From: Lachnospiraceae bacterium
GTDB lineage: Bacteria; Bacillota; Clostridia; Lachnospirales; Lachnospiraceae
DNA length: 64,000 bases
Assembly (NCBI GenBank): GCA_017431345.1
Contig: JAFRLH010000015.1
Coordinates: forward strand, 62,001 to 126,000
Direction of reading: 5' to 3'
Within the stretch, counting starts at the first letter, position 1. The number at the start of each line of letters is the position of its first letter. Under the pieces are notes generated by a model. That model worked only from the letters and a program-made list of their open reading frames with translations, was not told the origin of the DNA and searched no databases. Below are positions 1,905 through 62,120 of this stretch, in pieces. A program made the translations under genes and the position numbers.

Positions 1905-4859
1905 ATGCGCATCAATGAACACAATCTGGATTCGCTTCGTAAGCTTATCCGAGATCTCCAACAGGAGAACGAATCTCTGAAAACGCTTCTCTCAGAACAT
2001 AACATTCCCTATGAAGAGAGAAATGTACTTGATGAACAATTCGTCCCGGATGAATATGACGAGGATCAGGGTGCCCGTATTCTTCCTCATGCCCCCACAG
2101 AGAACGATGCCAAAGAATTTTACAGTTACTTCTGGGGACGTACGGATGTTTATGCGAAACGTGGAAAGAACGGCGGCTATTTTCCCCAGTGCGCAGGTCG
2201 CTGGGATAATCCGCTGTGTCCAAAAGCGAAGGATTCCAAAGTCTTCTGTGATGAGGACTGCAAGTATAAATCCTGGAAACCGCTCACTCCATATATAGTC
2301 CGGCAGCATCTCCTTGGGTTTAAAGACGATTGTTCTGATGTAATAGGCGTTTATCCTCTCTTTCCTGACAGCACCTGCCGTTTTCTTGTCTTCGATTTTG
2401 ACAACCACGAAAAAGACGCCTATAAAAATGATGATGCAAATACAGACGACCTTTGGAGAAGCGAAGTCGATGCTCTGCGCAAAATCTGTGAGCTGAATCA
2501 TATTGATGCTTTGGTCGAGAGATCCCGGTCCGGCAGAGGCGCTCATCTGTGGATTTTTTTCAAAGGACCGGTACCGGCTGCTTTGGCAAGGGCATTTGGC
2601 TTTGCTCTTCTTGATCGCGGCGCATCATCCATCAATCTCCCATCCTTCAAATATTATGACCGTATGTATCCATCCCAGGATGTTCTCAGTAAGCTGGGGA
2701 ATCTGGTTGCCCTTCCACTGCAGGGACAGGCGTTAAAGCAGGGGAACAGTGCTTTCATCGATGCTTCATGGAATGCATACCCAGATCAATGGAAAACGCT
2801 CCATTCCGTTCGGAAGCTATCCGCAGAGGAAGTAAAGGATTACTTACAAAGATGGGGCTCAGAGGCATCACCAACACTATCCTCAACCATTTATGCAAAA
2901 GGCGGGCAGCAGGTACGGCCATGGAAAAAGGATGACCGTTTTCACCCGGAAGATGTCATCGGGAAAGCCCTTCATGTTGTCCTGGATAATGGTGTATTTG
3001 TAGATACGCTGAATCTTCTTCCTCGCCTGCAAAACCAGATCAAAGGCCTGGCCACGATCGATAACCCCGAGTTTTTCAGGAACAAGGCTGCCGGGCGGTC
3101 CAATTATTATAATCTTCGGACCATTTCCACCTGGAGCGAAACAAACGGCTATATCAGAGTACCTCTCGGACTGCTGGAAACGATTCGAGACAAAGCAAAA
3201 ACGACTGGAATCTATGTGGATATTCATGACAAAAGATGCCACGGAACTCCGATTCGGGTAAGTTTCAAAGGAGAATTACGTGAGCAGCAGGAATTTGCTG
3301 CAGCAAAACTGGAAAGATACGAAAATGGAGTATTGAATGCTCCGACCGCTTTCGGGAAAACGGTTCTGGCAGCATATATGGTCTCGCAGAGAAAAGTCAA
3401 TACGCTTGTTTTACTCGAAAGCACTGATCTTCTTCCTCAGTGGATTCGGGAATTCGAACATTTTCTGGAAATCGATGAGGCACCGCCTGTTTACTACACA
3501 CCCACAGGGAGAAAGAAGACCCGGGACAGTGTCATCGGCACTTTAAAGGCTGGTCAGGATAAGACGACCGGTATCATTGATTTTGCCCTGATTGGGTCTG
3601 CCTACCATAAGGGGAAGTTTTTCCCGAATATTAACTCTTATGGAATGGTATTGATTGATGAATGTCATCATATCGCTTCCGCACAGGGACAGGCATTGAT
3701 GAAGAGGATCCGGGCGAAGTATGTGTACGGCTTATCTGCCACACCGAGCCGGAGTGACCGTCTCGATGAGATCATCACCATGCTTCTCGGATCTGTCAGA
3801 CACAAGTATACAGCAAAAGAGCAGGCGGATGAACAAGGCCTTGATCGATTCGTGATTCCCCGATTCACAAGAGTGGTCAACATCAGCGGGGAACAGCTGG
3901 ATATCCATAAGGCGGATGAGCTCATTTCCTCAAGCGAGAACCGTAATGAGCAGATTGTCCGGGATACCATTCATGCTGTTTCGAATGGACGTACGCCGGT
4001 AATTCTTACAAAACGCAAAAAACATGCGGAAGTTCTGAAAAAACTTTTGGAAGGCAGTGCAGACCATGTTTTTCTGATATATGGCGGTCAAAGTGAAAAG
4101 CTGAACCAGGAAATGAAGGATGAGATGCTGTCGCTGCCCCGTGACAAAAGCATGATCCTGATTGCAACCGGTCAGAAAGTAGGCGAAGGGTTTAATTTTC
4201 CCAGACTGGATACACTGATGCTGGCCGCACCAATTAAGTTTGAGGGAAGGCTGACCCAATATGTCGGCAGACTGAACCGTGTTTATGAGGGGAAGCAGGA
4301 TGTGGTGGTCTATGATTATGTTGACACACACATCGGGTTCTTTGACCGACAATACAAAAACCGCCTGACGGCATACAGGAAACTCGGATACAAAGTATTG
4401 TCGAAGCCGCTTGGAACAAAGCAGCAGGTGAATGCCATCTTCGACCGTCGGGATTACATGGAGACATTTGAGCGTGATCTGGTAGAAGCCGATCAGGAAA
4501 TTGTGATCGCAAGCCCGGGAATTCGTCGAAACAAGGTGGAACGTCTCATACGACTGGTAAAAGCACGTCAGGAAGCGGGTGTTTCCGTCACGGTCATCAC
4601 CATGAATCCGGAAAGCCAGGGATTTGAGGATACGATAGAGCTTCACATCCTGATGGAGGAAATGAAGAAGAACGGTATCATGGTGCGGTTAACCGCTGAA
4701 GATACAGAACACTATGCTGTCATAGACCGTCATCTTGTCTGGCACGGAGGAATGAATCTGTTGGGAAAAGCCGATGCATGGGACAATCTGATCCGGGTGG
4801 AAAACACGCAGGCAGCGGCTGAACTTCTAGAAATATCAGATATGGCTGTAAATGAATAG
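1905..4859 (+). CDS. TOTE-type primase - SF2 helicase - PLD-like protein
   Basis: This 984-residue multidomain protein starts with a short coiled coil (about 5-32). A cysteine cluster follows (C96, C105, C115, C119), then an archaeo-eukaryotic primase core with DFD at 164-166 and SGRGAH at 209-214. The superfamily-2 helicase has Walker A APTAFGKT at 479-486, DECH at 585-588, SATP from 611 and QYVGRLNR at 785-792. The last 120 residues resemble a phospholipase-D-like domain: D941 and GGMN are kept, but the usual HxK positions appear to be T934 and H936. TOTE-type primase-helicases are proposed counter-invader enzymes. It may prime, unwind or process foreign nucleic acid with the AlbA_2 partner. 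The nuclease may be inactive. SD is GAGGAG. Confidence 0.82.
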   Translation: MRINEHNLDSLRKLIRDLQQENESLKTLLSEHNIPYEERNVLDEQFVPDEYDEDQGARILPHAPTENDAKEFYSYFWGRTDVYAKRGKNGGYFPQCAGRWDNPLCPKAKDSKVFCDEDCKYKSWKPLTPYIVRQHLLGFKDDCSDVIGVYPLFPDSTCRFLVFDFDNHEKDAYKNDDANTDDLWRSEVDALRKICELNHIDALVERSRSGRGAHLWIFFKGPVPAALARAFGFALLDRGASSINLPSFKYYDRMYPSQDVLSKLGNLVALPLQGQALKQGNSAFIDASWNAYPDQWKTLHSVRKLSAEEVKDYLQRWGSEASPTLSSTIYAKGGQQVRPWKKDDRFHPEDVIGKALHVVLDNGVFVDTLNLLPRLQNQIKGLATIDNPEFFRNKAAGRSNYYNLRTISTWSETNGYIRVPLGLLETIRDKAKTTGIYVDIHDKRCHGTPIRVSFKGELREQQEFAAAKLERYENGVLNAPTAFGKTVLAAYMVSQRKVNTLVLLESTDLLPQWIREFEHFLEIDEAPPVYYTPTGRKKTRDSVIGTLKAGQDKTTGIIDFALIGSAYHKGKFFPNINSYGMVLIDECHHIASAQGQALMKRIRAKYVYGLSATPSRSDRLDEIITMLLGSVRHKYTAKEQADEQGLDRFVIPRFTRVVNISGEQLDIHKADELISSSENRNEQIVRDTIHAVSNGRTPVILTKRKKHAEVLKKLLEGSADHVFLIYGGQSEKLNQEMKDEMLSLPRDKSMILIATGQKVGEGFNFPRLDTLMLAAPIKFEGRLTQYVGRLNRVYEGKQDVVVYDYVDTHIGFFDRQYKNRLTAYRKLGYKVLSKPLGTKQQVNAIFDRRDYMETFERDLVEADQEIVIASPGIRRNKVERLIRLVKARQEAGVSVTVITMNPESQGFEDTIELHILMEEMKKNGIMVRLTAEDTEHYAVIDRHLVWHGGMNLLGKADAWDNLIRVENTQAAAELLEISDMAVNE

Positions 4860-11936: not shown

Positions 11937-13769
11937 TCACATCTTTTCTGCCTTCAGACCAGCCTCAGCCACAAAAGGGGACGGTTTCAGCTTTCTGTCA
12001 AACCTTTGTCTGACATAAGAGATATACAGTCTCTTTTTGGCGCGTGTCATGGCAACGTAAAAAAGCCTTCTTTCCTCTTCCCTGTCTGCCTCTTTTACAG
12101 CCCGTTTGTGCGGAATGATCTCAGTATTTGCATCCGGAATAAAAACGATATCATACTCCAGGCCTTTTGCCCTGTGCATGGTCATAATGGACACGCCGGC
12201 AGCCGTTCCGTGTTCCTGCCTTCCTTTCTCCCGGATCTCCCGTTCTTCCCGGATCCGTTCCATCCATTTCTTCAGCGTCCTGCAGGAAGAAGCGCTTTCC
12301 ATAACATCGTCCAGCACAGCCATCAGACTGTCCTCGGAGATCCCGTTATCCGCCGCATACTCCCGCAGAAAAGAATCATATCCGACAAACTTACGTATAT
12401 ACCGGATCGCTTCATACGGGCTCAGTCCGGAGATCACATAGATATCATGGGCCAGCTGGTCCACCCGCTCCGCCAGCCATTCTTTGTCTGCCAGTTCCTC
12501 GATCACGGAATCCAGATCGATCTCCGGATCAGAGAACAGTTCTCTTTTCAGATATCTCACCGGACGGTTGATGATCCGCAGGAAATCTCCGCGTCTTCTG
12601 CTGCCTGCACCGATCATCAGATAAGTGATGATATCCTGCGCGATCCAGTGGGAATAGACGTCGGGGATCAGGTCAGACAGATTAAAGGGTATATTCAGCC
12701 GGTTCAGCTTTTCCACGATCCCTCTCGGACCGGTGTTCGTCCGGTACAGGACCGCGATATCCTCATATGGAATGCCATTTTTTGCCATGGCTGCGATCAT
12801 ATTCGCGATATGCTGATTCTCCCGGGAAAAATCGGAGAACTCCCATACTTTTACAGGGATATGCGTTTTCTCAAATGCTTCCAGATTTTTGGCATAGCGC
12901 TTCCTGTTCTTCCCAATCAGCCGGACGGAAGTCTCTACCACATCCGGCACAGAGCGGTAATTGACCGAAAGCTTCAGGATCTTTGCGTCTTTAAAATCTT
13001 TTCCGAATCCGAGCATGATCTCCGGCCTTGCGCCCCTGAAGCGATAGATCGACTGATCGTCGTCACCCACCACGAACAGGTTCCCGTCTGCGGCCAGAAG
13101 CTTTACGATATCATACTGCATCGGATTGATATCCTGGAATTCATCGACCAGGATGTGCGTGTATTTCCGCTGCCATCCGGCCAGGATATCCGGCCGGGCT
13201 TTAAAGAGCTCGTACACGAGCTTTACCATATCTTCAAAGTCCAGCAGCCCTGACGCCCTTAAGTATTCCTCATACCCTTTATACACTGCCCGGAAGATGT
13301 TCTCCGGGCAGACATTTGAGTAGAAAAGATCCGGATCCTGCCCGTTTTCCTTGATATAAGCGATCTCATCTGACACATGTGTGACGGCATCCTCGTCTCC
13401 TTTTACCGAATACCCGGCCCGGACCAGTTCCTCGCGGATCTTCTTCCTGCGGATATCCGGTGCGATTATATCCTTTGCGGAATACCCGTAAGCATATTTC
13501 AGGATATTAAAAAAGACAGAATGAAAAGTACCGAAAGTGACGGGAAGTTTCCTCCCCGCCATCTTCGTAAATCTGTCTTTCATTTCATCGGCAGCCGCGC
13601 GTGTAAAGGTAACTACCAGGATATTTTCCGGCAGGATCCCGCGCACAGAGATCATATGGTCCAGTCTCCGGGTTATGACAAAGGTTTTTCCCGAACCCGG
13701 CCCGGCTATGACCATTACCGGGCCGTCCGGCGCAGTCACCGCAGCTTCCTGTTCTTTATTCAGCCGCAT
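11937..13769 (-). CDS. UvrD/PcrA-family ATP-dependent DNA helicase
   Basis: This 610-residue superfamily-1 helicase has Walker A AGPGSGKT (22-29), motif Ia [10 protein letters not shown], Walker B DEFQD (209-213), motif [16 protein letters not shown] (235-247) and a C-terminal motif [13 protein letters not shown]. It is shorter than PcrA/UvrD (about 720), so it belongs to the compact UvrD-like helicases of Clostridia. It probably works 3'-5' in repair or in clearing protein roadblocks. Its start overlaps the end of gltX by ten bases, so the two genes are co-transcribed and probably translationally coupled. Confidence 0.93.
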
Positions 13770-55345: not shown

Positions 55346-57328
55346 TTATTTCCAGAGAACGAACCCGATAAGGATGATCTGCGCCAGCAGGATCAATGGC
55401 AATCCGATCCGGAAATACCAATGTTTCGTCTTATGGTGAAAAAGATGCATTCCTGCGATCGCTCCGATACTGCCTCCGAGCAGTGCGATCAGGAACAACG
55501 CTTTTTCAGAAATCCGCCATTTCCCTCGTTTTGCCCTGGATTTGTCCAGACCGTACATCACAAATGCAATGAGGTTGATTCCTGCAAGCAGCAGACCCGC
55601 CATAAAGTATACATGCGGCACATTGTAACTGAGCTGTGTATAGCATCCGTTGAAATAGTGATCCAGGATCGGTTCGATCTCTTTTCTCTGCTCTGCTTTT
55701 ATATCGCTTTCCATATGAATATCACTGCCGAGCACCATCGTTTCTCTTGCGGCAGAATCATACGGTTTCCAGGTGTGACCATCCACGCCCGGATCGCCGG
55801 TCCTTGCAAAATTCACCCACATATCCTGTACGGTATCCGCCAGTTCCTGATCGTATTTCCCGCCGGTATAAATCGCCTCTTCAGGATTATTGAAGACATA
55901 GGCCAGTTCTACCGCATGACAGGCGCCGATCTTTTCGTCTGCGCATGGATATGTCCAGTAATAAGTGTAGGTGTTATTCCCCTGCTCCGCGTGATAAGCC
56001 GCCTGCTGCATCGCCGGAATCCGGAATAATGTCTCCGTATAGAATTCAGACAGCTTTTCTGCACTGCTGCCGTCCTGCATGGCCAGAAATGCTTTAACAT
56101 GCGCCTTTTCCTCTCCAGACAATACACGCAGATTATTCTCATACATAATGGGGATCATTAGCTTGTAAAGAAGTGTCCCGGGCACCGGCGGCGCGGTATA
56201 GCCCATTTCCCAGACCCAGTATTTCACTTCATCCGCATTGGTGCCGATCATCATATCAACACCGCTGCTTTTACCAAACTGATAAGCACCGTATAGATCC
56301 TCCGGCAGAATGACGCCGTCTCGCTCCGGAAAGTTGGCATAGTCATTCAGCTTTTCATTGACCGCTTTCAGTTCCTCTTCGGAAAGTGCTGTAAGCGCCT
56401 CCATATTGGTGCATCCAGTTTCTTCCAACAGCATATTGGTCAGATTCTGACACTCTTCCCTGCTGTAGGTCAGCGTGACAGACCCGCTCTGTGCGATCAC
56501 GCGCCGGAACAGGCCTTTTGTCCCATCCATAAGCGGAAGCAGAGATATGCTGCCGGCTCCCGACGACTCTCCGAAAACAGTCACATTTTCAGGATTCCCG
56601 CCAAATGCGGAGATGTTTTTCTGCACCCATTCCAGGGCGCATTTCTGATCGAGCAGCCCCAGGTTCCCGCTCTCTCTGTATGCCTCTCCGCCTTCGACCG
56701 AGGACAGATCGATAAACCCGAGAAGTCCGGATCGGAACTCAACGGAGACCAGTATGAGATCATCATATTTGCTGACAAGATTGTGTCCGTCATAGATCGG
56801 ATCAGAAGTGGCTCCCCAGGCATAGGATCCTCCGTGAAAAAAGACCATGACCGGTTTGTCCGAAGAGTCATTGCTGCTGTTCACCCATACATTAAGCTTC
56901 AGGCAGTCTTCGCTCTGCGGATAATAGGAGCCCGGTTCAGAAGGCCACTCCGTCTGTATAGGGGAACAGCCGAAATAATACGCCTCATAAATGCCCTCGC
57001 TGTCCTCTGCAGGTACCGGCGGTTTCCATCTGAGGCTGTCAATTGGAGATTCAGCGTACGGAATCCCCTTATAAGATACGACATCGCTGTCTGCCAGACC
57101 GACAAACGTTCCGTTTCTGCATTTCACAGAATGCTGCTTATCAAAACTGCCTGTAATTTCATGGTTCTCCCCATACATTCCGGCTACACGTTTCTTCATA
57201 TCCGAAGATGAATTTCCGCAGCCGACAGACAGCAGCAAGACAGCAAGTATAAAAACAAAAGCCAGGATCCGATTGGATCTGGATACAGGCTTTTTGTTAT
57301 TCGAATGTTCAGTTATATGCTTTTCCAT
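55346..57328 (-). CDS. lipoprotein carboxylesterase fused to DUF1294
   Basis: This 660-residue protein has a lipoprotein signal (lipobox LLSVGC near 34-39). A type-B carboxylesterase domain (about 65-560) shows oxyanion VFFHGGS, nucleophile FGESSGAGS and a catalytic His in GACHAVELA. The last 90 residues are a two- to three-helix DUF1294 membrane domain (MYGLDKSRAKRGKWRISE and GAIAGMHLFHHKTKH). DUF1294 is normally a separate small protein, so this fusion would hold the enzyme to the membrane at both ends. The substrate is unknown. Confidence 0.87.
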   Translation of the reverse strand: MEKHITEHSNNKKPVSRSNRILAFVFILAVLLLSVGCGNSSSDMKKRVAGMYGENHEITGSFDKQHSVKCRNGTFVGLADSDVVSYKGIPYAESPIDSLRWKPPVPAEDSEGIYEAYYFGCSPIQTEWPSEPGSYYPQSEDCLKLNVWVNSSNDSSDKPVMVFFHGGSYAWGATSDPIYDGHNLVSKYDDLILVSVEFRSGLLGFIDLSSVEGGEAYRESGNLGLLDQKCALEWVQKNISAFGGNPENVTVFGESSGAGSISLLPLMDGTKGLFRRVIAQSGSVTLTYSREECQNLTNMLLEETGCTNMEALTALSEEELKAVNEKLNDYANFPERDGVILPEDLYGAYQFGKSSGVDMMIGTNADEVKYWVWEMGYTAPPVPGTLLYKLMIPIMYENNLRVLSGEEKAHVKAFLAMQDGSSAEKLSEFYTETLFRIPAMQQAAYHAEQGNNTYTYYWTYPCADEKIGACHAVELAYVFNNPEEAIYTGGKYDQELADTVQDMWVNFARTGDPGVDGHTWKPYDSAARETMVLGSDIHMESDIKAEQRKEIEPILDHYFNGCYTQLSYNVPHVYFMAGLLLAGINLIAFVMYGLDKSRAKRGKWRISEKALFLIALLGGSIGAIAGMHLFHHKTKHWYFRIGLPLILLAQIILIGFVLWK

Positions 57329-57403: not shown

Positions 57404-57612
57404 AGACAATACCCCAGTTTGCCAACGTGCAGCATCTAACCGGAACGCTCTCTGGGGGAATTCACATGATTTTGAATCTGGCGATACCCTTTTCACTGCT
57501 ATCCGACTGAAATATCAAACCAGTATAGGGTAGCGTCAGAGGCAATAATCAACGTAATTGCCCAAATCAATAGATGCAGCACTTACTGCAGGCGTCGAAA
57601 GGGGTATCGTCT
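57404..57612 (+). repeat. four-site non-coding element, copy A
   Basis: This intergenic element has four ordered sites: AGACAATACCCCAGT (57404), GGCGATACCCTTTT (57480), GTATAGGGTAGCGTCAGA (57523) and AAAGGGGTATCGTCT (57598). The first two are forward and the last two reversed copies of a core GACGnTACCCTTT. The outer and inner pairs are inverted repeats, so it looks like a miniature inverted-repeat element or a structured binding region. The same four sites with almost the same spacing recur at 61703-61909 in the same orientation. No clear target duplication. It fills most of the gap 57329-57669. Confidence 0.75.
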
Positions 57613-57669
57613 TCTATTAACAGGCGTTTTTCTCACCAGTTCTTTATTCACCAGACAGTGTCAGGATCC

Positions 57670-58143
57670 TTACGGAAGTTCCACATCCTTTCCGGTATAA
57701 AGGTATCTCAGATGAAACCCTGCCGGAACATCATGGATATCAGAAAAGGCGATCGTAACGCCATATTTTTCGGAAATATCCAGGCCTTTATCACCGAAGC
57801 CGTATACGTAGTGATAATGCGGATGCGCATCTTCGATCAGTTTCCCTTTTCTGCCGCTGACCCACTTTTCCTCCTGCATGAAATACGCTTTTTCAGCAAT
57901 GCGTTTGATCGTGCTCCCGGCAGGCATGGGTTTTGTTTTGGCACCCTTGGTAAAGGTATCTTCCCAGACGTCACCATTCCGTTTCCCGATGTACGTCTCA
58001 GCTGCTTTTCCTTTTTTAATGATAATATACCAATAGGTATTCTCTTTGCCGCCGAGAATGTGATCCACATCATTTTGATAGGCCTGATATAATTCAAACC
58101 CATCATTTTCCTCCACAAGCTTAATAAACTGTTCTGATGACAT
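57670..58143 (-). CDS. hypothetical protein inside the repeat-bounded segment
   Basis: This 157-residue soluble protein is not recognised. It starts MSSEQFIKLVEENDGF and contains YWYIIIKKGKAAETYIG and a His-rich HPHYHYVYGFGD block that could bind metal. The start follows GAAGGGAG. It lies between the two four-site elements. Confidence 0.68.
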   Translation of the reverse strand: MSSEQFIKLVEENDGFELYQAYQNDVDHILGGKENTYWYIIIKKGKAAETYIGKRNGDVWEDTFTKGAKTKPMPAGSTIKRIAEKAYFMQEEKWVSGRKGKLIEDAHPHYHYVYGFGDKGLDISEKYGVTIAFSDIHDVPAGFHLRYLYTGKDVELP

Positions 58144-58262
58144 GATGTATTCTCCCTTCCCTCAAATCACGCCAAAGGTTTACAGCACTCTTCTGATAGC
58201 AAGGACAGGTGCTCAGCAAACAGATCCCATGTCTTCTTCCGCTCATAAAACCATGACGGCAC

Positions 58263-58457
58263 TTATTCGTCCCACTCATCGAAGATTTCGTCATACATTA
58301 TCATCTCATCAATACTGTATGGCTGTTTTTTCTTTTCTCTCTGCATTTTCCTGAAGGTCCTGTCATCTACGGTAATGACACGCTCTTCATATACTTTCTT
58401 TTTACCAAAGAAAGTATTCTTTTCCGTTTCGACCATGACTTTGATTTTGTGCTTCAT
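58263..58457 (-). CDS. small charged protein
   Basis: This 64-residue protein starts MKHKIKVMVETEKNTFFG, has a Lys/Arg-rich middle and an acidic tail. Its ATG overlaps the stop of the RHS-like gene (ATGA), so it is translated by coupling. Not recognised; an adaptor or antitoxin-like role is only a guess. Confidence 0.6.
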   Translation of the reverse strand: MKHKIKVMVETEKNTFFGKKKVYEERVITVDDRTFRKMQREKKKQPYSIDEMIMYDEIFDEWDE

Positions 58458-59548
58458 TTGCCCAGCCTGTACACATTTGCCAATACGTCTAAATAATCAT
58501 CAGCGTATAATCTGGCCGAGGCTTTCTTAACCGTTTTATATCCGCCGTATTCATATTTTTCCAGTTTTTCAAATTCTGTTTGGCCATCTTCCTTACGATA
58601 ACTCACAAGAGACACCAGATTGCCATTTTTGTAGGTGTGTTCAAATTTGTATTCATCAACGCTGCCGTCACTGCACACCTCAGTATAGGCTGCCGGGTTT
58701 CCTTTCTGATCCCATTGTGTAATGGTAGTTTTCCACGTGTAATTGCTGTCGTTATCTTTTTTCACTGTAATAACGCCGGTTATTCTGCCTTTCGAATCAT
58801 AGGAATAAGTTACTGTATGGACCTCACCATTTCCGGTCCATTCTATTTTTGTAATTTTCCCTTTCGTATTATAGGATTCATTCCGGACAGACCGTCCCTC
58901 CGCATCCTTTACAGTATAACGATGACCGGTCATTCTGCCTTTTCTGTCATAAGTATATTGTTCTGTTTCGCGATAGGATTCCTTCCCCGTATCGGAATCA
59001 TAACCTATGTACGTTTCCGAAGTACATTTTCCCTTTTTATTATATTTATATTTCACAACAGCAACTGTCTTCTTTTTTTTCTTAACGTATGCCTTGCACG
59101 TCTCTTTAATAAGTCTGCCGGATCTGTATTTGTAATAGGTGATCCAGTCCAGTTTATTCTTATCATCATAATAGGCTTTTGATTTTCGAAGCCCTTTCTT
59201 ATTATATTTGTATACTGTTTTGTCTTCCTGTTTCAAATTACCATTTTTAAGGGCAAACAATGTTTTGTCTTCAAGCAAATGGTTCTTTTTATATTTTAAT
59301 TGCTCGACAACGGTGTTACTCACTTTATTACCCGAATAATTTTTTGTGGTTACTTTAACAACGTTCCCCTTTTTCACCTTATATTTTGTAGAAAACTGTT
59401 TTTCCCAATAGGATCCCCACCAGCTGGACTCACTTTTCGATGTCGGTATTTTTTTACCGGATGCTGCAAACACCGGTGCGGCGAACAGCGACACTGCCAT
59501 ACAGACAGCAACTGCTAAGGATGCAGCAGTTATAAATGGTTTTTTCAT
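58454..59548 (-). CDS. secreted YD/RHS-repeat-like protein
   Basis: This 364-residue exported protein has a signal peptide (about 1-29). Its body is built of YD-like repeats: YKYNKKGKCTSE, YTYDRKGRMTGH, YSYDSKGRITGV and similar units about 20-25 residues apart. Full RHS toxins are far larger and carry a cage and toxin tip, so this is a repeat-only shell or binding protein. SD GAGGAGG. It forms an operon with the small protein that follows. Confidence 0.8.
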   Translation of the reverse strand: MKKPFITAASLAVAVCMAVSLFAAPVFAASGKKIPTSKSESSWWGSYWEKQFSTKYKVKKGNVVKVTTKNYSGNKVSNTVVEQLKYKKNHLLEDKTLFALKNGNLKQEDKTVYKYNKKGLRKSKAYYDDKNKLDWITYYKYRSGRLIKETCKAYVKKKKKTVAVVKYKYNKKGKCTSETYIGYDSDTGKESYRETEQYTYDRKGRMTGHRYTVKDAEGRSVRNESYNTKGKITKIEWTGNGEVHTVTYSYDSKGRITGVITVKKDNDSNYTWKTTITQWDQKGNPAAYTEVCSDGSVDEYKFEHTYKNGNLVSLVSYRKEDGQTEFEKLEKYEYGGYKTVKKASARLYADDYLDVLANVYRLGK

Positions 59549-59639
59549 ATTAAAACTTCCCTCCTCATTGCATTTTTTTGATTATACCATATTTAAAGCC
59601 AACGGAATACCACTGGCAGGATCGATTCAGCCGCTTTCT

Positions 59640-61454
59640 TTAAACACCTGTCCCCAATGCATTCAAAAAAGACCGTACGGCAACAGCTTTCATGGGCTGG
59701 CCGCTGCGCTCCGCATTTCCTTCCCTCTCCCGGAGCAGCTCTGCCAGCTTCCTCGTTCCTTCCAGTTCTCTCCCAGCACTGCCCTGCAGTTTCCGCCGGC
59801 TGGCAGCAAGGATCTTCCCGATCAGATCAGCGAAACCGATCCGTTGATGGTTGCTCTCCAGAGAATCATAATAATCCAGGATGGCCATGATCAGTTCCTC
59901 GTCGAGGGAGGACAGTACTCCGTTGCGGCAGGCACGAACAGCTTTTTCATCACAGCTGCGGCAGGCTGCCAGCAGCTGATTCCGGTCGGCGCGCCGGCGG
60001 TATTCTCCGCTTTCCATATAGGATTGGATCCGCTCACAGATCTCCCGCTCGGCAGGGCTGCATGCTGCAAGCTCTTCATCATCCATAGGATCTGACGCGA
60101 ACTCAGGCGCTGTTTCCGCATTACCGGCTTTCGCAAGTGATCTCTCAAGCCCGCTCCGCATTTTCTTCATGTCCGGTACAGAAGGCCAGCAAAATCCGGG
60201 ATATGATCTGGCTGCGGCTAGGTTTCGGATCAGCAGCAGATATTCATCCGGCGCCAGCAATCCTTCTTCAGCCATATGCAGATAGGCTTCCCATCCCTCT
60301 GTCAGAATGGTATCGTCAATTTCGGCAAACGGCAATGTGCGAAGACGGTTCTCAGGCCGTGACATTCCCTGAAGATTCTCTTTCATCCGGTGAACCTGAA
60401 GACGCAGAATGGCATCATCCCAGTTGCCGGAATTGATGCTGTCCTTCAGGCAAAGAGGCAGAAAACGGTCGTGGTAGAATTCGGGATATTTCTGCTGCAG
60501 TCTGTTCAGGCCATAGCCATAGAGACTGCTGCGGGAGATCCTCCCGTTTTTAGCCAGCATGGTAAACAGAACGAAGGAAGTAAAGATCCGGCGGATATCG
60601 CCGTCCGGCATCTGCTCCTCCTGACAGAATTCGTAGATGCGCTCAAAATCCTGCAGCCCGCTGCGGAGACTGCGGATATTTTGGATCTCACATTGTGACA
60701 GCAGCGCACATAATTCTCTGCGGCTGTTCTGCAGAAAAACCGTATATCCTGTCAGGGAGGTACGGTATTGTTTCAGAATGCTGTCGATCACGGCCGTTTC
60801 ATCCACATGCAGCCGGACAGTCCGTTCGATCAGCTTCTCTTTCATTTCTGAATAGTTCAGAAATTCTCTTTTCCGATCCGCGGAATTTCTCTCTTCGGAA
60901 ACACTGCGGTTTTCTATCTTTTCCTCATTCGCCACAATAATCGTCTTGATATGGAGATTTTCACAGTACTCATTGATGCACCCCAGCAGCTCTACCTGTG
61001 AAAGATTCGTACGCTCCAGATCATCGAAGACCAGGATCACACACCGCCCGGCCATTACCGGTTCCGGCTGAATATACTCATAAGGATCCCGAAGATACAT
61101 ATTCATCCGGGGACTTTCTTCTCCGATTTGATAGACCCAGTCATTGGCTGAAGGTTCCGCAGCATCCCCTTCAGGGCTTCCCGGGACAGTGCCCGGCAGC
61201 TCCGAAGCATCTTTCCGCAGGATCATAAGAAAATGATCCAGGTATTCCCGTCGGATCTTTTTCCGGATTTCCTCCAGCGATTCCTCACCGAACAGAGAGA
61301 TTCTCAACAGAACATAGGAAGGACCAAGTTCGGCGGGAAGATCATTCTCCAGCAGATAGGTCTTGCCGGAGCCCCATTCTCCGCAGAGGAGCAGGGCTCC
61401 AAAGGTATTTTTACTCCGGCAGTACCGGGCGATTTCTTTTAATGCAGCAGACAT
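59640..61454 (-). CDS. KAP-like P-loop NTPase
   Basis: This 604-residue protein has an N-terminal P-loop domain with Walker A GEWGSGKT (25-32) and Walker B VFDDLER (142-148), as in KAP/STAND-like NTPases. An all-helical C-terminal half (about 250-604) has no recognised motif or membrane segment. Proteins of this build often sense invaders or act as regulatory ATPases in defence and membrane-linked systems. It starts behind GGAGG. It lies between the two four-site elements, after the RHS-like operon in gene order on the minus strand. Confidence 0.75.
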   Translation of the reverse strand: MSAALKEIARYCRSKNTFGALLLCGEWGSGKTYLLENDLPAELGPSYVLLRISLFGEESLEEIRKKIRREYLDHFLMILRKDASELPGTVPGSPEGDAAEPSANDWVYQIGEESPRMNMYLRDPYEYIQPEPVMAGRCVILVFDDLERTNLSQVELLGCINEYCENLHIKTIIVANEEKIENRSVSEERNSADRKREFLNYSEMKEKLIERTVRLHVDETAVIDSILKQYRTSLTGYTVFLQNSRRELCALLSQCEIQNIRSLRSGLQDFERIYEFCQEEQMPDGDIRRIFTSFVLFTMLAKNGRISRSSLYGYGLNRLQQKYPEFYHDRFLPLCLKDSINSGNWDDAILRLQVHRMKENLQGMSRPENRLRTLPFAEIDDTILTEGWEAYLHMAEEGLLAPDEYLLLIRNLAAARSYPGFCWPSVPDMKKMRSGLERSLAKAGNAETAPEFASDPMDDEELAACSPAEREICERIQSYMESGEYRRRADRNQLLAACRSCDEKAVRACRNGVLSSLDEELIMAILDYYDSLESNHQRIGFADLIGKILAASRRKLQGSAGRELEGTRKLAELLREREGNAERSGQPMKAVAVRSFLNALGTGV

Positions 61455-61702
61455 ACAGATTCCTCCTGCTTCCTTTTGCTTAACACTTTGATGCTGATAT
61501 TTTATAACTTGCTTATTTTACCAGAATCATCAGCAGCATTCAATCAATCATACATAACCTGATCTCCTTTCAGCCTTCCTTGATCTGCTTCTGAGTCAAA
61601 CATCGGCTGATAACCGGATATTGCGGATCATAGTTCCCTTCTTACTGTCATCAATATATTCTGTCATCAATACATTTTTTCTTTTTCAAACGTCTTTCCA
61701 AA

Positions 61703-61909
61703 AGACACTACCCCAGTATTCTGACGAATGACCACAAACCGAAACGCGATTGGGTGATATTAGTACATATTTGCCAGACGATACCCTTCTAGCTTCTTAA
61801 TAATCATGTTTTCCTGCTGGTAAAGGGTAGCATCAGATGATTCTAACAATTAAAAAACCCAGATCCTTCAAATGTTCCGCTTCTGACGCCTGCTAAAAGG
61901 GTATCGTCT
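61703..61909 (+). repeat. four-site non-coding element, copy B
   Basis: This is the second copy of the element at 57404: AGACACTACCCCAGT (61703), AGACGATACCCTT (61776), GTAAAGGGTAGCATCAGA (61820) and AAAAGGGTATCGTCT (61895). Site-to-site steps are 73, 44 and 75 bases against 76, 43 and 75 in copy A. The second and fourth sites form a perfect 12-base inverted repeat. The DNA between sites is not conserved, so selection or the origin acts on the sites themselves. It lies in the 665-base gap before the 62121 gene; no other feature is seen there. Confidence 0.75.
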
Positions 61910-62120
61910 GTGTAATGTTTCATGGTTATGGATAATCACACTCCTCCGTAGCAAAACAAATTGGAAGCGCCGGCCAAGGAGAATGCCGTACTGTAACAAT
62001 AACATTACTATCCCGGCAGTCAATATGTATCCTGTTGTACCACCCTGCAATGTATGTTAAACTTAATATTAAAGAATATCATTTCAGCCGGACAGCCGGC
62101 AGAAAGGACAGGAATTTCCT

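Follow-up and report, generated by a model that had tools for sequence, protein, structure and literature searches.

Two mirror-symmetric four-site arrays in a Lachnospiraceae genome as possible members of a dispersed family of protein-binding DNA elements

The 64,000-nucleotide stretch analysed here (the window) covers positions 62,001 to 126,000 of contig JAFRLH010000015.1 (G000:C16:62001-126000) and lies within a 3.27-Mb draft genome of 94 contigs from a Lachnospiraceae bacterium. Two elements between genes, A and B, each carry four related sites in a mirror-symmetric plan. A sequence-only reading of the window had proposed two intergenic stretches of 209 and 207 bases, 4.3 kb apart, with sites in the order forward, forward, reverse, reverse. 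Both stretches were recovered, and both show this order. The window's genome is designated G000, and its genus is represented by a set of 11 genomes including G000. The features are given below, with partner motifs derived from 60 arms.

57404..57612, no strand: element A, mirror-symmetric four-site array, intergenic, called genes on either side at 57328 and 57670 (model E 3.7e-19)
57405..57417, plus strand: element A outer site 1, GACAATACCCCAG
57480..57492, plus strand: element A inner site 2, GGCGATACCCTTT
57525..57537, minus strand: element A inner site 3, GACGCTACCCTAT
57599..57611, minus strand: element A outer site 4, GACGATACCCCTT
57450..57462, plus strand: element A weak partner motif of site 2, CTCTGGGGGAATT
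57558..57568, minus strand: element A weak partner motif of site 3, plus-strand letters TTGCCCAAATC
61703..61909, no strand: element B, mirror-symmetric four-site array, intergenic, called genes on either side at 61454 and 62121 (model E 2.6e-19)
61704..61716, plus strand: element B outer site 1, GACACTACCCCAG
61777..61789, plus strand: element B inner site 2, GACGATACCCTTC
61822..61834, minus strand: element B inner site 3, GATGCTACCCTTT
61896..61908, minus strand: element B outer site 4, GACGATACCCTTT
61749..61760, plus strand: element B weak partner motif of site 2, ATTGGGTGATAT
61852..61863, minus strand: element B weak partner motif of site 3, plus-strand letters AAAAAACCCAGA

Elements A and B both belonged to the training set of the model that gives their E values. 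Site starts are separated by 75/45/74 bases in A and 73/45/74 in B; the steps of 76/43/75 and 73/44/75 proposed earlier differ through the choice of anchor base. The four-site plan is shared as the sequence-only reading described, but its shared core, GACGNTACCCTTT, is exact at only one of the eight sites, and the outer left sites of A and of B are each three bases off it. That reading also saw the four sites but overlooked a weaker partner about 28 bp outward of each (TTTGGGTTTTT and variants). In A and B only the partners of the inner sites can be recognised. With a mirror-symmetric plan, to say that the two elements share an orientation is meaningless. Allowing up to two mismatches, GACGNTACCCTTT matches 14 times in the window, against a mean of 3.1 and a maximum of 8 in 100 shuffles. 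A composite score for four sites reaches 81.9 at B and 69.5 at A, with 42.0 at the next best place in the window and a largest maximum of 52.5 in 200 order-1 Markov simulated windows; this test is not blind, because the consensus of these same elements supplied its hand-set site weights. The four-site observation at A and B is real.

The wider family defines the anatomy more sharply. Across the 60 arms, which come from 30 elements (loci L009 and L024 fell below the score for inclusion), the inner site has the consensus GACG[A/C]TACCC[T/C]TTTT, and the outer sites are looser. The weak partner 28 bp outward of each strong site is mostly TTTGGGTTTTT and in some arms TTCTTCCGT. The resulting four partner-site blocks have centres about 73 bp apart, or about seven helical turns. 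At L009 and L019, block 2 and its partner (placed by eye) are displaced by 11 bp, which gives a spacing of 84/34-35, and the fourth site is weak or missing. Gaps between blocks measure 23, 34-35 or 42-45 bp and therefore differ by about one helical turn. Over the 62 bases that precede the inner site, a stretch that takes in the partner motif, T content and A/T content peak at a period of 10-10.5 bp, more strongly than in any of 2000 shuffles.

Further copies, without which the two elements would have passed for a chance or local duplication, exist both in this genome and in relatives. A pattern of three sites matches 15 times in the genome and its reversed control never, while a single-site pattern gives 61 matches against 29 for its reversed control. 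A sequence model built from 24 elements recovers 23 loci at E<1e-4, including 13 used to train it; among the matches listed, the weak loci C88:24181 (E 7.8e-4) and C88:14186 (E 1.1e-3) fall outside this count. All 23 loci lie between called genes, in 12 tandem, 6 divergent and 5 convergent gaps. Background gaps over 100 bp in the same stretches number 58, 21 and 13, respectively, and the arrays show no clear orientation preference over them. These counts are approximate, because the gene calls come from a home-made coding score. At one convergent locus, L020, which lacks a recognisable site 1, the array nearly fills the space between the two stop codons. The adjacent genes, which from their translations and without a family search we take to encode CoaBC, CoaX, ThiI, FeoB, TypA, CysS and others, look unrelated to each other. 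Different copies within the clade of G000, G200 and G209 are at background identity between their sites, with a mean of 0.276 and a highest pair of 0.46 over 630 arm pairs. For this comparison and for the covariation tests below, 12 ortholog copies were dropped, which left 18 of the 30 elements.

Within the genus, the pattern matches 17 times in G200 and 14 times in G209, with no control matches, and it has no match in the other eight genomes. The sequence model adds more distant elements of G207 and finds nothing at E up to 0.1 in the remaining seven. A stricter pattern run over a species collection of 84,980 genomes, which may leave out the window's own genome, returned 15 stretches. Thirteen come from the Lachnospiraceae metagenome-assembled genomes CAMOZZ01 (6) and DFKM01 (7), and the other two are isolated matches of the chance type. 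A viral collection gave no match to the pattern.

Many copies occupy corresponding places in the relatives, and sites are present at orthologous intergenic places in both G200 and G209, as the sequence-only reading would have it. Among the loci fetched around pattern matches, 7 of 7 in G209 and 5 of 8 in G200 align to element-bearing loci of G000. One G200 locus (L097) consists of three tandem copies of 574 bp and corresponds to L022 by its neighbouring proteins. L085 aligns to a G000 contig that lacks the stretch, beside a possible assembly join. L081 and L088 have no partner among the G000 loci compared, and L098 has none by protein. Over the orthologous pairs the sites are 80-93% identical and the DNA between them 46-78%. 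The five G000-G200 pairs retain 176/220 site positions, 111/180 in partner motifs, 320/700 between sites and 290/625 in the outer flank. The corresponding figures for the seven G000-G209 pairs are 285/308, 215/252, 766/980 and 547/875. This comparison covers neither element A, lost in G209, nor the G209 elements on C9, C33, C166 and C181. Constraint is hard to avoid as an explanation where, as in G200, elements share a place while the DNA between their sites is nearly saturated.

Gain and loss of copies can both be traced. The gap between what we take, from reading the sequences rather than from a family search, to be coaBC and coaX carries an element in G000, G209 and G200. No element was seen by eye in this gap of seven other genomes, and the G206 locus was unreadable. 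This pattern points to a gain in the common ancestor of G000, G209 and G200. Element A, by contrast, has been reduced in G209 to its first site by a deletion.

Arrays on the same plan occur in other lineages of Lachnospiraceae, namely G207, G086 and G230. In G207 the inner sites are 42 bp apart, the outer ones lie about 84 bp away and form short palindromes, the partner word is TGTGCAA, and the copies look alike by eye between sites, in both orientations. An array in G086 has ten half-sites at 28/44/28/44/29/44/28/44/28, and G230 holds two arrays of six half-sites at 29/42/29/23/28 and 28/23/29/43/28, in scans of 0.41 and 0.33 Mb of these genomes, respectively. Over 200 family genomes, each from another genus and G000 included, the three-site pattern matched in G000, G086 and, singly, in G004; this last match is at chance level, because the reversed control matched once or twice in nine of the 200. 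The model run over 250 family genomes matched in two, G000 and G230, under strict filters and with nine candidates scored per listed genome, so that weak or differently spelled arrays would be missed. G086 was not among these matches, yet its array was found (E 4.9e-5) when the stretch was given to the model.

We suggest that A and B are members of a dispersed family of mirror-symmetric arrays that is likely bound as double-stranded DNA by a putative sequence-specific protein, an explanation to which we give about even chances. We infer the binder and its function from the four-block plan, the block shifts of 11 bp, the phased T-tracts, the intergenic placement and the conservation of sites over linkers, all of which were observed. 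A protein assembly on one face of bent DNA would be expected to leave conservation biased towards the sites, spacing by whole turns, T-tracts in phase and no regard for gene direction. The binder might be dimeric or have two domains, with copies aligned along that face, and the complex that they form, whether bent, wrapped or looped, could then serve as a chromosome-organising or insulating anchor rather than as the switch of one regulon, because the arrays ignore gene direction and adjoin unrelated genes. In the clade's ancestor the family might have proliferated as a miniature mobile element, to be retained later for its binding sites. More tentatively, and with less than even confidence, the arrays could represent a chromosome-architecture element of Lachnospiraceae in which blocks of inverted TACCC half-sites recur at approximately whole-turn periods near 51, 62, 73 and 84 bp. 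The plan would be kept across genera, the outer recognition letters would vary by lineage, and a putative coevolving protein would wrap the DNA. With a site, a spacing rule and about two dozen places defined, the arrays provide a testable handle on a putative DNA-binding protein of a major bacterial family. If the arrays organise the chromosome, they would be an anchor type with multiple blocks in which recognition sequence and plan evolve separately. If they are mobile relics, they would illustrate a strong retention of protein-binding sites after amplification. The titles and abstract openings returned by searches of an open literature collection contained no description of such arrays or of multi-block anchors.

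A tandem array of four units of about 83 bp, with the core GTGCAAAATCCGGGG...TACCCCGG, lies in G207 at C40:15826-16125 (L161 ~3327-3626), just upstream of a gene for a 258-aa protein. This gene was considered as the cognate of the arrays and dropped; the protein has no Pfam match and is absent from the 11 other genomes searched.

Several observations weigh against a protein-bound anchor. No binding protein was identified, and the reading rests on sequence analysis. Since the sites were what identified an element in each genome, ascertainment accounts for part of their conservation. Between G000 and G209 the linkers (766/980) themselves exceed the outer flank (547/875) in identity, and the contrast in these pairs is thus one between sites and their near surroundings only. 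Single copies are dispensable, because most of element A is gone in G209. By pattern, the family is absent from eight of the ten other genus genomes, one of which, G207, was later found by the model, and such a patchy distribution fits a lineage-specific repeat better than an essential organiser. Folding belongs here as well. Element A folds better than shuffled sequence (z -4.6), and all eight of eight pieces of 146-148 nt from other elements have negative fold z values, from -0.9 to -4.7. In 9 of 9 G207 copies the two inner sites match at their one variable A/C position (P 0.012, with five stretches tested).

The fold of element A also favours a structured RNA with TACCC/GGGTA stems, one of the possibilities raised by the sequence-only reading. 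The inverted sites are able to pair, and pieces of L021 and L085 fold at z -4.4 and -4.7; inverted sites alone would give such strong folds. Element B reaches a z of only -1.7. Stems predict better letter matching within an element than between elements, and the covariation that the earlier reading had suggested looking for did not appear between paired sites. Pairing of site 2 with site 3 was 0.815 as observed and 0.817 when re-paired (P 0.60), and that of site 1 with site 4 was 0.444 against 0.521 (P 0.98), both over the 18 independent elements; all 30 gave the same outcome. The outer palindromes of G207 likewise show no excess pairing (P 0.41, ungapped, 15 of 18 palindromes found). The window stretch had no Rfam match at E up to 1, and the 11 matches over six related loci, 10 of which were to microRNA or snoRNA families, all fell below the gathering score. 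Arrays moreover occur in gaps of all three kinds, whether tandem, divergent or convergent. With no covariation between paired sites and no convincing Rfam match, a structured RNA is unlikely, and we regard this explanation as very improbable. What stands of the earlier choice between a transposon-like element, protein-binding regions and an RNA is a dispersed four-site family that resembles protein-binding regions and may derive from a non-autonomous element.

The arrays could also be old copies of a miniature non-autonomous transposon, with sites that served as transposase-binding ends and no present host function, which we consider somewhat unlikely as a description of their present state. 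The dispersal of copies, the lineage-specific gain at the coaBC-coaX gap, the two to three repeats per arm, the likeness of G207 copies between sites in both orientations (by eye) and the triple tandem copies in G200 all speak for it, and the family may well have had a transposon origin. Neutral relics, however, would not be expected to keep their sites at orthologous places while clade paralogues are at background between those sites. Neither a clean empty site nor a target duplication came to light; the sole absence inspected, that of A in G209, is a deletion leaving site 1, and the coaX gap in other genomes is too diverged for the junction to be read. A GGGG-like tip and a bipartite end of 39 bp, which we took to be Tn3/TIME-like (for Tn3-derived inverted-repeat miniature elements), had prompted the idea of a Tn3/TIME origin. 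It was rejected after a search for the Tn3 family alone found its transposase in none of the 11 genus genomes, several of which are incomplete; the control search matched in 2 of 14 named genomes. An autonomous partner with two sites per end was likewise discarded. All 19 places matched by the two-site pattern in G000, G200 and G209 lie in already-known arrays, with 8 matches against 10 for the reversed control in G000, 4 against 5 in G209 and 7 against 2 in G200. Operators of a transcription factor that controls adjacent genes as a scattered regulon are improbable in our view. At 18 of the 23 loci at least one gene start faces the element (6 divergent, 12 tandem), and DNA-looping repressors usually act from multi-site operators spaced by whole turns. 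Yet 5 of the 23 lie between convergent genes, including L020 in its nearly filled gap, orientation shows no clear preference over background, and the neighbouring genes look unrelated.

The segment between A and B holds the following genes, given as context and lying outside the arrays.

58454..59548, minus strand: protein with one RHS repeat (Pfam PF05593, E 7.4e-7)
59640..61454, minus strand: KAP-family NTPase gene (Pfam PF07693, E 5.6e-10)

These Pfam matches bear out the RHS-like and KAP-like genes named by the sequence-only reading, which also had A and B bracketing an accessory segment as a unit and proposed comparing the presence of segment and element. That comparison went against it: G209 retains the segment order from A to B, with the neighbours in place, and lacks most of A. 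DNA matches to the KAP gene occur in 5 of the 10 other genus genomes (G209, G200, G208, G205 and G207), and the stretches read around it in G200, G208 and G207 contain no array. These findings led to the rejection of a cassette bounded by twin elements; A and B do not make a unit of the segment. Were A and B the twin ends of a composite mobile segment of 4.3 kb, two copies at this distance would be accounted for, but with about 23 copies in 3.27 Mb such a close pair is near expectation (about 0.7 pairs by a rough estimate), and we find this explanation scarcely credible. The RHS-like gene region of G209 (L091 7397-8977, 9216-9918) cannot be aligned by DNA, and this part of the segment differs between species.

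The protein-bound arrays share features with several known systems. Repetitive extragenic palindromes (REP) and bacterial interspersed mosaic elements (BIME) are short intergenic palindromic modules in alternating orientation that have been proposed to bind architectural proteins. The arrays are likewise dispersed, intergenic and lineage-specific with inverted modules, but they comprise four blocks at a spacing of about seven turns, each made up of a 13-bp site and its weak partner. Conservation is mainly that of the sites, and there is no covarying stem such as the base-paired palindrome of REP and BIME. The matS sites of MatP, Noc sites and RacA clusters place tens of sequence-specific sites across a chromosome regardless of gene direction. 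All 23 loci resemble them in being dispersed, intergenic and independent of gene direction. Those sites are single short palindromes or loose clusters, whereas the arrays have multiple blocks at fixed spacing and a putative binder. CsoR-type operators (TACCCC-N-GGGGTA) place half-sites a few bases apart, with one operator per target gene; the TACCC/GGGTA half-site is common to both, but those of the arrays are 28 and 45 bp apart. Miniature inverted-repeat transposable elements (MITEs), including the Tn3-derived TIMEs (compare PMC4133298 and PMC13367494), resemble the arrays in being about 200-260 bp long, mirror-symmetric, dispersed and without a gene inside. The arrays differ in that no outward tip or target duplication was found, sites are repeated inside each arm, the 11 genus genomes contain no Tn3 transposase, and sites are kept while the rest diverges. 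Their mirror-symmetric arms do amount to terminal inverted repeats, though their strong sites face inwards and the weak partner motifs lie outside them. Homology over the whole length of copies was not found among the 630 arm pairs of this clade; the G207 copies are alike by eye.

Some minor observations concern other loci. Two close TACCC-N-GGGGTA boxes at L111 ~2449-2498 (G000:C27:47448-47497) are unrelated to the arrays and resemble CsoR-type copper operators. Similar close pairs occur in G200:C15, G205:C211, G207:C32 and G209:C4, which makes five genus genomes altogether. Positions 1-1416 of L035 (G000:C4) are at their start 98% and then 90% identical to G200, with the rest at about 79%, a possible chimeric contig or recent transfer. 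G201:C198 carries two copies of coaBC-coaX about 35 kb apart, at 12840 and 48140 (L141, L142), with nearly identical upstream DNA, reflecting a duplication or an assembly artefact. In G086 the same 50-bp hairpin, TACCCGGTTTCAA...TTGAAACCGGGTA, is present in identical form at C4:113856 and C7:83670 (L114, L115). In the window, positions 55346-57328 encode a carboxylesterase domain and a C-terminal DUF1294 domain in a single reading frame, to our knowledge an unusual pairing.

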